Positions 1 to 16,506 of a DNA stretch of 64,000 nucleotides are shown piece after piece (within the stretch, counting starts at the first letter, position 1; the number at the start of each line of letters is the position of its first letter). The notes under the pieces were generated by a model. That model saw only the letters and a program-made list of their open reading frames with translations, was not told the DNA's origin and searched no databases. Source of the DNA: Streptomyces formicae (GTDB lineage: Bacteria; Actinomycetota; Actinomycetes; Streptomycetales; Streptomycetaceae); the NCBI RefSeq assembly GCF_002556545.1, contig NZ_CP022685.1:806001-870000 (forward strand), given 5' to 3'. Both the position numbers and the translations under genes were made by a program.

Positions 1-65
1 AGGAGACCCTCCTGCAGCGGCGAGAGCGGCAGAATGTCCTCGATGGTCCGCGGCTGTCGGCTCAT
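1..65 (-). CDS. NRPS, N-terminal start only (runs off left edge)
   Basis: Only 21 codons are visible. The start codon ATG at 65-63 overlaps the TGA of the 4-module NRPS (ATGA), so translation of the two is coupled. The visible protein reads [10 protein letters not shown] followed by [11 protein letters not shown]. In NRPS families this is the usual opening of a condensation domain that follows an epimerisation domain, and it doubles as an acceptor COM (docking) motif. That agrees with the upstream protein ending in an E domain. It would attach residue 5 of the peptide. Nothing can be said about its A domains from this window. Confidence 0.9.
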
Positions 66-3000
66 TTGTGCGTCTCCCACTCCTGGGTCAACTCTTCTTC
101 GAACTCGTCGATCTCGTTCTGGTCGATCGTGGAAAGGCCCACGTCGGACGGGGTGAGTCCACCCGCGTCCGGCCGTTCGGCATGTGTGGCAAGGCACTCC
201 AGTGCCCGGAACCACAGGCGGGCCAGTTCCTCGACCCGGTCCTCGCTGAGCAGGTCACCCGCCCAGGTCCATACGGCTGCCAGTTCGGGCCCCTGCGGGG
301 TGTCCCGGGTGGCGGCGTTCAGTTCGAGCACATGCGGCAGCGGCATGCGCGGATCGTGGTCGGTGCCGGTGTCGACACCCGCCTCGATGGTCCAGTCGGC
401 GGGGTCGTCGTCGGTGCCCACGGCGTACCGGCCCAGGTAGTTGAAGCCGATCTCCGGCTGCGGGCGGGCGGCGAGCTGACCCGCGGTCCGCGGGTCCAGG
501 TAGCGGGCGAGGCCGTAGGCCATGCCACGGTCGGGGATGGCGCGCAGCTGTTCCTTGACCCGTTTGACGAGGTCACCCGCGGCCGGGCCCGCCGCCCACG
601 CGTCGGCCAGGTCCAGGTCCCCGGCCCGCAGGCGTACGGGGTAGATGCTGGTGAACCAGCCGACGGTGCGCGACAGGTCGGCGCCGCCCGCGAACTCCTC
701 TTCCCTGCCGTGTCCTTCGAGGTCGAGCAGCACCTCGGCACCCGCCCGCGCCGGACGGCCCGCGCCCGTGCGGCCCGACCGGCCCTGCCATTCCGCCGTG
801 GCGAGGGCGAACGCGGCCAGGAGCACCTGGTCGGGTCCCGCGCGGAAGGCGGCGGTGACGGAGCTGAGCACGGCTTCGGTGACGTCCGGCGGCAAGGTCA
901 CCGACAGATGCCGGGCCGTGGCGTAGGTGTCGCGCGCCGGGTCCAGGGAACGTGCACCGAGCCGCGGTCCCTCATCGGCCAGGACGTCCTGCCACAGGGC
1001 GAGTTCGGTGGCGTCCGGGCGTTCGGCGGCGAGCTCCGCGAGGCGGTGGGCCCAGCCGCGCAGCGAGGTGCCCACCGGCTGGAGCTGCGGGACTCCCCCG
1101 GAGGCGCAGCCGTGCCAGGCCTCCGCGAGGTCCGGCAGGAGGATGCGCCAGGACACGCCGTCGACGGCGAGGTGGTGCACCACCAACAGGAGCCTGCCCT
1201 GCCGCCTCGGTCCCGCGTCGAACCACACGGCCCGCACCATCACGCCCTCGCGGGGCGCGAGCCGGGCCCTGGCCGCGGCTCCCTCCTCCAGGAGCAGGGT
1301 CCGCAGTCCTTCGTCGTCCGCGCCGGAGACGTCGACCCGGTGCAGCACGTCGGCCGCGCGGGGACCGGGGCCTTCGGGAACCTCAAGTCGCCAGCCCGCG
1401 GCGCTCCCGCCTTCGCCGCCGTCGTCGTCGGTGACGTGGAGGGTCATGCGCAGGGCGTCGTGGTGGTCGAGGACCGCCTGGAGCGCCCGCGCGAGACGGT
1501 CGGGGTCGGCGCCCGCGGGTACCCGGACGACCTGCGACTGGCTGAAGTGGTCGGTGGGACCGCCCAGTTCGGCGAGCCAGTGGGTGATGGGCATGAGGGG
1601 TACGTCACCGGCTCCCTTCGCGTACTCCTCGGTGACCGCCACTCCGGGGTCGGAGTCCTGTGCGGCATGGGCGAGGGCCATGACCGTCTGGTACTCGAAA
1701 ACGTCCCGCACGGAGAGTTCGAGTCCGGCGCGCCGGGCCTTGCTGACGAGCTGGATGGCCATGATGCTGTCGCCGCCGAGCACGAAGAATCCTTCGTCGA
1801 CGCCGACCTCGTCCTGGCCGAGCACCTCGGCGAACACGGCGCACAGCACTTCCTCGCGCGCGGTGGAGGGCGCGCGTCGCTGGGTGTCGCCGCCGTACTC
1901 GGGGCGGGGCAGCGCCTTTTGGTTGACCTTCCCGTTGGGTGTGAGCGGCAGGGCGTCCAGCGGCACAATCGCCGTGGGCACCATGTGGGCGGGCAGCTCC
2001 CGCGCGAGGTGTTCCCGCCAGGCCGCCGGGTCCTGACCGGTCCCGGCACCGGTGGCCGGAACGGCGTAGGCGACGAGGCGCTTGTCGCCGGGACGGTCCT
2101 CGCGCACCACGACGGTGCACTCGCCGACCCCCGGGTGGCGGGCGAGGGCCGCCTCGATCTCGCCGAGTTCGATGCGGAACCCGCGGATCTTCACCTGGTG
2201 GTCGGAGCGGCCGAGGTACTCAAGACCTCCGTCACGGTTTCGGCGCGCGAGGTCGCCCGTGCGATACATGCGGGAACCGTCGGCCGCGAAGGGGTCGGCG
2301 ACAAAGCGCTCCGAGGTGAGACCGCGACGGTGCAGATAACCGTCCGCCGGGGCCCGGCCACCCACATACAACTCGCCCACCACACCGAACGGAACCGGCC
2401 GCAACCGCTCGTCCAGCACATGCACCCGCAGGTCCGGGATACCCACGCCGATCACACTGCGGGCACTGCCGTCGGTCAGCGACTCGTCCAACGGCAGGTA
2501 GGTCACATGCACCGTCGTCTCGGTGATGCCATACATGTTCACCAACAGTGGCGAACGGTCCCCGTGCCGGGCATACCAGTCCGCCAACCGCGACGGCTCC
2601 AACGCCTCACCACCGAACACCAGATACCGCAGAGCCAACTCCCGCCCCACCTCCGGGCGATCAGCATCAGCCTGACTCAACTGGTAGAACGCCGACGGCG
2701 TCTGATTCAACACAGTGACCCGCTCACGCACCAGCAGATCCAAAAAGTCCGCAGGCGACCGGCTCACCTCATGCGAGACCACCACCAAACGCCCACCGTG
2801 CAGCAGCGCACCCCACAACTCCCACACCGAGAAATCGAACGCGAACGAGTGGAACAACGTCCACACATCATCCGCCCCGAACCCGAACCACTCATCCGTC
2901 GCAGAGAACAACCGCACCACATTCTGATGCGCCACCACCACACCCTTAGGGCGCCCCGTCGAACCCGACGTATAAATCACATACGCCGGATGCTCCGGCA

Positions 3001-14761: not shown

Positions 14762-16506
14762 CCCGCCGCCCCCTGCGTCGTGACACTGGTGTGCATGCTG
14801 TCCAGACGTCCTTCGACGTAGAGCTCGCGCATGGCGGAGCGCTCGATCTTTCCGCTGGTGGTGCGGCGGATGCCGCCCCGGCGCACCAGGACCACCGCGG
14901 CCGGTACGACCCCGAAGTCCCGTGAGACGGACAGCTTCATGCGGGCGGCGAGCCCGGCGAGCTGCTGCTCGTCCAGACCGGTCTGGACCTCGTGGGTGAC
15001 GACGAGGGACTCCTCGGTGTCACCGTCGGCGTGCGGGCTCGCCGTGGTGGCGAACACGGCCCCCACGTTGCCCAGTTCGGGGTGGTGGACCCTGAGCTCG
15101 TACTCGATGTCCTGGGGGTACAGGTTGCGGCCGCGGAAGATCATCATGTCCTTGATGCGGCCGGTCACGTAGAGCTCGCCGTCGTGCACGGCACCCAGGT
15201 CACCGGTGCGCAGGAAGCCCGCTTCGCCGTCGGCGGTCACCGCGCGGAACGTCGCTTCGGTGGCCTGCTCGTCGCGCCAGTACCCCTGGGCGACGCTGGG
15301 GCCGCGCAGCCAGATCTCCCCGATGTTCCCGGCGGCCAGGCGCTCTTGGGACTCGGGGTCGACGATGGCCACCTCGTAGTCGTGCGCGGTGCCGTTGCTC
15401 GGCAGGTCCCGCCCCCGGTCGGCGAACGTGGTCGCGCGGAACTCGCGGCGGGCGAGGGAATCGCTGTCCACCTTGGTGACGACCGGGACGCGCGGGGGCG
15501 CGCCGGAGACGAACACCGTGGATTCCGCGAGGCCGTAGCAGGGGGAAGCGGCCTCGGCACGGAACCCGGCGGACGCGAACCGCTTGGCGAACTCGGTCAT
15601 GGATCCGGCCTGCACCGGCTCGGAGCCGTTGACCGCGTAGCGCCAGCGTGAGAGGTCGAGCCCGGTGATCTGTTCGTCCGTCACCTTGCGGGAGCAGTAG
15701 TCGTAGCCGAAGTTGGGGGCGGCGGACCAGCTGATGTCGTAGGTGTCGATCATCCGCAGCCAGTAGTGCGGCCGCTTGAGGAAGGTGGTCGGGTCCATGA
15801 GCACGCAGGTGCTGCCCCGGAAGAGCGCGGGCAGCGTCTGCGCCATCAGGCCCATGTCGTGGTACTGCGGGGCCCATCCGCCGAACCGCGCGTCCCGTGG
15901 CACCTCGAGGGTGGAGCAGAGGGTGGCCGCGTTGGTGAGCAGGTTCCCGTGGCTGATCATCACGCCCTTGGGCGTGCCGGTCGAGCCGGAGGTGTACTGG
16001 AGCAGGGCCAGCGTCCCGTGGTCGGCCGAGGGGGCCGACCACCCCGAGCCGTCGGGGAGTTCGCCGCCGTCGGTGACGAGGACGGGGAGCTGGTCGAGCC
16101 CTTCCTCCGCCGCCCAGTGCTCGACCGTACCCAGGTTCGCGGTGTCGGTGAGTACGGCGCCGGCCTGCGAGTCGGCGGCGATGGCCCGGACCCGCCTGCG
16201 CTCATGGGCGAAGCGTCCGGGCAGCGGGGCGGGCACCGCGACCATTCCGGCATAAAGGCACGCGATGAAAGGCACGATGAACTCGGCCGGCGGGTAGAGA
16301 AGCAGCATGCGGGAGCCGGCCGGGTGGCGATCGGCGAGCAGAACGGCCAGTTGTCGGGCCCGCGCGTCGAGTTCGGCGTACGAAAGATGCGTCGCGACGC
16401 CCTGCTCGGGGTCGCGCACCCAGATCAGGGAATCCTGTTCCGGACGGTCTGCCGCCCAATTCCGGAGGAGCTGCGTCGCGCTGGGATTGTTCAAGACATC
16501 GGACAT
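14758..16506 (-). CDS. Fatty acyl-AMP ligase (FAAL family)
   Basis: Predicted to adenylate a free fatty acid and load it on the neighbouring ACP. The ATG at 16506 gives 582 residues; a TTG at 16524 in the same frame is possible, but the ATG has GAGGA upstream. The protein has the AMP-binding signature YTSGSTGTPKG near residue 170 and the QYHDMGL segment characteristic of long-chain acyl-AMP ligases of the FAAL group. It ends in a reduced ANL C-terminal domain (TGRIKDMMIFRGRN, then TTSGKIERS). It is the first gene of the leftward ligase-ACP-NRPS series. Chain length cannot be read from the sequence. A CoA-ligase activity is less likely given the ACP partner. Confidence 0.93.
   Translation of the reverse strand: MSDVLNNPSATQLLRNWAADRPEQDSLIWVRDPEQGVATHLSYAELDARARQLAVLLADRHPAGSRMLLLYPPAEFIVPFIACLYAGMVAVPAPLPGRFAHERRRVRAIAADSQAGAVLTDTANLGTVEHWAAEEGLDQLPVLVTDGGELPDGSGWSAPSADHGTLALLQYTSGSTGTPKGVMISHGNLLTNAATLCSTLEVPRDARFGGWAPQYHDMGLMAQTLPALFRGSTCVLMDPTTFLKRPHYWLRMIDTYDISWSAAPNFGYDYCSRKVTDEQITGLDLSRWRYAVNGSEPVQAGSMTEFAKRFASAGFRAEAASPCYGLAESTVFVSGAPPRVPVVTKVDSDSLARREFRATTFADRGRDLPSNGTAHDYEVAIVDPESQERLAAGNIGEIWLRGPSVAQGYWRDEQATEATFRAVTADGEAGFLRTGDLGAVHDGELYVTGRIKDMMIFRGRNLYPQDIEYELRVHHPELGNVGAVFATTASPHADGDTEESLVVTHEVQTGLDEQQLAGLAARMKLSVSRDFGVVPAAVVLVRRGGIRRTTSGKIERSAMRELYVEGRLDSMHTSVTTQGAAG

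Follow-up and report, generated by a model that had tools for sequence, protein, structure and literature searches.

A gene cluster very probably of the telomycin family in Streptomyces formicae, and a tentative candidate for its dehydrotryptophan-forming step

Telomycin has long been known as an antibiotic, and its target, cardiolipin, is an unusual one (PMC4807238). Its peptide has 11 residues, hydroxyleucine among them, and according to PMC6331918 its oxidations are four in number (dehydrotryptophan, two 3-hydroxyprolines and 3-hydroxyleucine); it is described as a ring of nine residues bearing a tail of two (PMC4282715, PMC9113097). The origin of the dehydrotryptophan is called an unanswered question in a 2023 Nat Prod Rep review (PMC10880069). 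Here we analyze a stretch of Streptomyces formicae DNA of 64,000 nucleotides (G000:C1:806001-870000; hereafter the window), taken from a genome that consists of a single contig of 9,611,874 bases. The window holds the initiating half, or front end, of a telomycin-family pathway, and we are highly confident that the cluster as a whole, at ~768-833 kb of the genome, is a complete one of this family with the assembly order given below. Positions are those of the window unless marked as genome, and in the window the genes for nonribosomal peptide synthetases (NRPSs), the fatty acyl-AMP ligase (FAAL) and the acyl carrier protein (ACP) lie on the minus strand. Chance is not an issue, because the reading frames are long and the matches to curated families strong.

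The assembly line comprises three NRPSs with 11 modules (m), in the order Asp-Ser-Thr-Thr(E)-m5-Gly-Pro-m8-m9(E)-m10-Pro-TE. NRPS 1 (62-14404, 4780 aa, likely start ATG at 14398) consists of modules 1-4, each with condensation (C), adenylation (A) and thiolation (T) domains, followed by an epimerization (E) domain at 167-1576 (PF00668; motifs HHLAVDG, EGHGRE and FNYLGR). The A-domain cores, from motif A3 to motif A10, lie at 11555-12556 (A1, converted from residue positions), 8375-9388 (A2), 5156-6196 (A3) and 1922-2971 (A4), and their codes are DLTKIGAVNK (Asp), DVWHFSLVDK (Ser), DFWNVGMVHK (Thr) and once more DFWNVGMVHK (Thr, epimerised); re-extraction by alignment gave exactly the codes of the earlier sequence reading. 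The C domains of modules 2-4 (PF00668) are found at 9875-11233, 6704-8062 and 3479-4837. NRPS 2 begins at the left edge of the window (1-65, first ATG at ~65) and continues to genome 788573; its genome open reading frame (ORF), 788573-806215, encodes 5880 aa with modules 5-9 and a further E domain. NRPS 3 (genome ORF 781383-789161, 2592 aa) adds two modules and the terminal thioesterase (TE; PF00975, 63.7 bits across the last 204 residues). The codes of modules 5-7 are DVPHFSLIEK, DILQLGLVWK (Gly) and DVQYAAHVVK (Pro), those of modules 8 and 9 DAALMGAVTK and DAGALGVVLK, and those of modules 10 and 11 DAYLTGLMNK and DVQFVAQVVK (Pro). The fifth code is Ser-like, with Pro replacing Trp at its third position; the telomycin residue at this place is Ala.

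The original prediction, made from the window alone, had named the FAAL, the ACP, the first C domain, the four A-domain codes, the final E domain and the start of a second NRPS, all of which are present. Its proposal of a telomycin-family cluster is supported by the seven further modules to the left, four of which have independently readable codes that fit their positions (Gly6, Pro7, m10 and Pro11). Over the whole line, eight codes (m1-4, 6, 7, 10 and 11) agree with the telomycin residue order; of the order expected leftward, Gly6, Pro7, m10 (the first code of Tem22) and Pro11 were borne out, while modules 5, 8 and 9 are placed by position only. The terminal dimodule, with DAYLTGLMNK, a Pro code and the TE, is of the Tem22 type, as expected of the family. 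The motif HHxxxDG is kept in 11/11 C domains; those following E domains carry HHLLFDGW (after module 4) and HHILLDGW (after module 9), motifs that we take to mark D-accepting C domains, and the other nine have HHxAxDGW. The E-domain motifs behind module 4, with the HHLLFDGW domain next in line, are as expected for a predicted D-alloThr at position 4.

As for A1, the choice between Asp and Asn could be narrowed with two related clusters, one in S. griseomycini (G392, contigs C23 and C11) and the other in a genome of the same genus, G292, whose orthologous codes are DLTKVGAVNK and DLTKVGAVN-, respectively. We take DLTKIGAVNK to be a code of the Asp type and DLTKVGEVGK to be Asn-like, the latter being present elsewhere in G292; A1 is therefore read as Asp and not Asn.

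Initiation in the window involves three elements expected of the telomycin family. The FAAL (14758-16506; PF00501, 209.9 bits), the ORF of which reaches 16524 with the first ATG at 16506, is 76% identical to its counterpart in S. griseomycini and 60% to that in G292, and its matches to FAAL-type NCBIfam models all fall under the respective cut-offs. The free-standing ACP (14492-14761; PF00550, 47.2 bits) is conserved at 64% in S. griseomycini and at 41% in G292, where it also adjoins the FAAL. The first C domain of module 1 (13079-14365; PF00668, 219.5 bits; HHIALDGW) has the lowest PF00668 score among the four C domains of NRPS 1 and, judging from its place after the FAAL and ACP, should be of the starter type and acylate Asp.

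To the right of the FAAL lies a private tryptophan-supply block, already recognized in the original prediction, and this block recurs near the FAAL in both related genomes. It includes, on the minus strand, trpD for anthranilate phosphoribosyltransferase (20859-21986; PF00591 and PF02885; 79% identity in S. griseomycini, 71% in G292), trpG for a glutamine amidotransferase (ORF limits 23460-24398, true start internal; PF00117, 177.1 bits; 73% and 63%) and a trpE-type gene for a chorismate-binding enzyme (24077-25660, start estimated from homologues; PF00425, 274.1 bits in ORF 24077-27265; 65% and 62%). On the plus strand follows a class II 3-deoxy-D-arabino-heptulosonate 7-phosphate (DAHP) synthase (25703-27208; PF01474, 637.3 bits; 65% in G292). 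This enzyme exists in two copies in S. formicae and in each of the two relatives, and one of the two is always encoded on the same contig as the FAAL. Between the FAAL and trpD there is a gene for a prokaryotic phospholipase A2 (PLA2; 17705-18187, minus strand; PF09056, 125.7 bits), with a signal-peptide-like N-terminus and a CxxHDxxY motif found by eye, 76% identical over 129 residues in S. griseomycini and 68% over 150 in G292. PLA2 copies number one in G000, two in G292 and three in G392, and in each genome one is near the FAAL on its contig. The DAHP synthase and PLA2 genes lie within ~11 kb of the FAAL in S. formicae; the corresponding figures are 14 kb for S. griseomycini and 36 kb for G292, where the order is changed. 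Since both the trp block and PLA2 recur near the FAAL in two relatives, together with an ArsR-type regulator on the FAAL contig, they probably move together with the cluster, the alternative being a neighbourhood inherited from a common ancestor. The presumably secreted PLA2 is a possible supplier of fatty acid to the FAAL or a possible remodeller of the membrane.

Left of the NRPS genes (genome positions), the accessory genes include two P450s (P450a, 780002-781318; P450b, 770111-771349), an aminotransferase-methyltransferase fusion of 704 aa (774197-776311; PF00155 and methyltransferase domains) and a penicillin-acylase family enzyme (777219-779669; PF01804, 411 bits). By their domain content the latter two are candidates for the tryptophan C-methyltransferase and the lipopeptide deacylase expected of a telomycin pathway. 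The route to beta-methyltryptophan would presumably be of the MarG/MarI type, in which aminotransferase and methyltransferase activities act together, here fused in one protein. There are also genes for MbtH (779753-779974), an alpha/beta hydrolase (776387-777211) and a pair of ATP-binding cassette (ABC) proteins (768050-769863). Directly downstream of P450b is the gene for a 916-aa PF12902 protein (771374-774124; PF12902, 183 bits), distantly VioB-like. The candidates for the oxidations are thus the two P450s, which might hydroxylate Pro and Leu, and the PF12902 protein; of the anticipated tryptophan-desaturating P450 it can be said that P450s are present, but that the PF12902 protein competes for this step.

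A strong full-length match to the PF12902 protein was found in only two of 392 same-genus genomes, both of them FAAL-positive with this kind of cluster (a strong FAAL match occurs in 38 of the 392), and in a class-wide sample of 394 genomes the same two were the only carriers; S. griseomycini, which is outside both samples, carries the protein as well. The aminotransferase-methyltransferase fusion is present near full length and in one piece in 4/392 genomes, and with at least a partial match in 28/392. Two of the four lack PF12902, so the fusion can work without it; a six-frame scan of 20 kb around the fusion in each of these two genomes gave no NRPS adenylation motif and a single HHxxxDG-like string, in a sequence unlike a C domain. 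Among the matches listed (best 120 of 506 PF12902 homologues against best 120 of 518 fusion homologues), seven proteins of each kind share contigs of equal size (130758, 139651, 12442, 24005, 96640, 445505 and 1216320), which suggests linkage of the two genes. The residues E564, E597, H600, E658, E772 and H791 are invariant in 88/88 aligned sequences (the query and 87 chosen from the best 120 of 506 homologues) and may bind metal; the domain match and these conserved candidate ligands place the protein in the ferritin-like superfamily. The best sequence match in the PDB, 3hl1, reaches 26 bits and covers the ferritin-like part only. VioB, RebD and StaD, the indolepyruvate-imine dimer synthases, act on tryptophan-derived substrates, and heme is reported for them. 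Among the cluster genes scanned there is no VioA/RebO-type oxidase. A lead concerning a tryptophan side-chain oxidase (PMC8623686) yielded no link to PF12902.

Gene content and gene order in the S. griseomycini cluster match those described here over the span between the left ABC genes and the DAHP synthase, at 61-90% identity (NRPS 3, 80%); modules 2-5 fall in a contig gap. The G292 cluster (C22:44500-99405 and C19:44500-85390) is related, with a different line of ~12 modules, the order of which is provisional owing to a contig break and interrupted NRPS frames: Asp, DASTIAAVDK, Ser, DVLKVGAVNK, Thr, Gly, DMPQFGLIWK, Asn-like, m8-like, m9-like, Thr, Pro. Its left-side genes are conserved (PF12902 64%, aminotransferase-methyltransferase 60%, acylase 64%, MbtH 77%, hydrolase 70%), while the P450 directly upstream of PF12902 is only 27% identical to P450b and 28% to P450a. 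The G292 stretches examined contain nothing close to P450a or to the left ABC pair (best ABC match 32%); with Thr at module 10 of G292, this fits an action of P450a on Leu10. The G292 cluster also contains a glycosyltransferase, PhyH and WelO5-like oxygenases and a tryptophan-halogenase-like ORF, the last recognized by eye from its first residues.

The route that we propose would begin with the FAAL and ACP loading a fatty acid and the starter C domain acylating Asp1. By homology to telomycin, the three NRPSs would build the 11-mer Asp-Ser-Thr-D-aThr-Ala-Gly-Pro-Trp-D-betaMeTrp-Leu-Pro, with the beta-methyltryptophan made by the fusion protein and tryptophan supplied by the trp/DAHP block, and the TE would close the C-terminus onto Thr3, which would give the ring of nine and the tail of two residues described for telomycin. 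The P450s would hydroxylate Leu and Pro, the PF12902 protein would desaturate Trp8, the penicillin-acylase-type enzyme would remove the fatty acid, and the ABC transporters would export the product. The desaturase step taken alone we consider possible, at somewhat under an even chance. The fuller version, in which PF12902 represents a new kind of enzyme that desaturates the Calpha-Cbeta bond of tryptophan in peptides (a ferritin-like and possibly heme oxidase acting on the assembled or carrier-bound lipopeptide) and PLA2 feeds the FAAL or alters the phospholipids of the producer, cardiolipin being what telomycin targets, is slightly more tentative still.

Several points weigh against this scheme. 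The codes of modules 5, 8 and 9 have no independent reading as Ala, Trp and Trp, and the likeness to the tem cluster is judged by printed codes and the mode of initiation only. The introduction of PMC6331918 calls all telomycin residues L, which misfits two E domains. The VioB equivalog TIGR04492 scores 18.2 bits for the PF12902 protein, far from its cut-off of 1250, so that the likeness to VioB consists of the PF12902 ferritin-like domain and this weak match, and heme in the PF12902 protein is a possibility only. Among the matches listed, its 506 homologues include proteins of 39-67% identity in many other actinobacteria and in metagenome bins of other phyla; given this wide distribution the family cannot be regarded as specific to telomycin, and the invariant residues speak for an intact site and not for desaturation. 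Moreover, the PF12902 gene is directly preceded by a P450 gene in all three clusters. This last arrangement favors the competing explanation that P450b makes the dehydrotryptophan and PF12902 acts otherwise, e.g., on indolepyruvate, as does the implication of a fungal P450 in formation of the dehydrotryptophan of echinulin (PMC10880069). The poor conservation of the G292 P450 (27-28% to both S. formicae P450s, against 60-64% for PF12902, fusion, acylase and FAAL) is unexpected for one conserved reaction, and we read it as pointing to a different job. Two P450s are also said to be needed for Leu and Pro hydroxylation in telomycin, reportedly from the work of Fu et al. in 2015. The P450 hypothesis is nevertheless alive, and we regard it as plausible, although rather doubtful.

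A different question is whether the product of the proposed route is telomycin itself or a new congener, for instance one with an unhydroxylated Pro7, as in A-128-P, a known congener with L-Pro in place of trans-3-hydroxyproline (PMC4282715). No proline-3-hydroxylase family (PF05373) match was obtained in the three genomes, which also counts against the proposed scheme, but this search was silent in every control, so that absence is not demonstrated; no 2-oxoglutarate oxygenase was seen among the cluster genes scanned, the search for other hydroxylase families being confined to these genes. A new congener is therefore conceivable, with the chances moderately against it. As for a calcium-dependent lipopeptide of the daptomycin or calcium-dependent antibiotic (CDA) kind, initiation by FAAL, ACP and starter C domain and a CAT-CATTe termination are found in daptomycin, too (PMC9113097). 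Here, however, the terminal codes are of the Tem22 type, no 3-methyl-Glu code is present, and only module 1 has an acidic code, which leaves no Asp-X-Asp-Gly motif; with the codes of modules 2-11 such a product was ruled out, and we hold it to be extremely improbable.

Three regulatory genes lie among those described: the ArsR-type helix-turn-helix regulator (ORF limits 16695-17786, minus strand; PF12840; 78% identity in S. griseomycini, 65% in G292), whose true start is probably internal because the ORF overlaps the PLA2 gene; a Streptomyces antibiotic regulatory protein (SARP)/AfsR-type regulator (18309-20477, minus strand; PF03704 BTAD), 50% identical in G292 and not in its place in S. griseomycini, where a 46% match is found elsewhere on C23; and a MocR-type regulator of the GntR-aminotransferase architecture (22078-23508, plus strand; PF00392 and PF00155; 84% and 68%). 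Just right of the cluster are two adjacent ATP-binding proteins, ABC-F-like with two ABC stretches each (29833-31539 and 31620-33299). An FAD-dependent oxidoreductase (PF01494, 42106-43620) lies outside the conserved block, ~15 kb to the right of the gene for the DAHP synthase, and for this reason was not counted among the cluster oxidases. Farther on are an SrpI-like shell protein of the family 2 encapsulins, which bears a cyclic-nucleotide-binding domain (43892-45304), and a carotenoid-oxygenase (RPE65) family enzyme (48213-49820). Beyond the right edge of the window, the genome encodes another large NRPS system (7968 aa and 2366 aa; genome 918752-949740, plus strand).

The value of the cluster lies in a testable, named candidate for the dehydrotryptophan step, in the co-conserved PLA2 and in relatives that differ in gene content. 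If the assignment is true, a PF12902 desaturase would explain how the dehydrotryptophan of telomycin forms and would add a new reaction to the repertoire of enzymes related to those that couple indolepyruvate imine; among the matches listed in the open-licence literature searched, no published assignment of this step was found. Should the host be strain KY5, it is reported as CRISPR-tractable (PMC12551763).

Among the matches listed in the literature searched we found no published description of the whole 11-module line. The claim of the original prediction, a telomycin-family cluster or a new relative, stands; the cluster is no novelty in itself, since the tables of Baltz 2021 (PMC9113097) already list S. 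formicae KY5 as '(Telomycin)', in one case as '(Telomycin?)', with the biosynthetic gene cluster status 'Draft (AS)'. It adds one more member, previously noted in print, to an established family. Both terminal codes printed there for the Tem22 homologue of KY5 equal those found here; for this reason the genome analyzed is probably that of KY5, and the putative telomycin cluster of Baltz 2021 is probably this very cluster. The m10 code DAYLTGLMNK is identical to that printed for four Tem22 homologues, and the same source labels it 'Ile', whereas telomycin has hydroxyleucine (PMC6331918). The tem cluster of S. canus ATCC 12646/12647, as given in the same review (PMC9113097), shares with the present one the initiation by FAAL, ACP and starter C domain and a terminal dimodule with the identical m10 code, and differs in the m11 code (DVQFVSQVMK against DVQFVAQVVK here). 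Ambobactin of S. ambofaciens F3 has the residue sequence of telomycin and contains D-3-methyl-Trp (PMC6331918); this fits the E domain after module 9, and the two E domains of the S. formicae line agree better with ambobactin than with an all-L telomycin.

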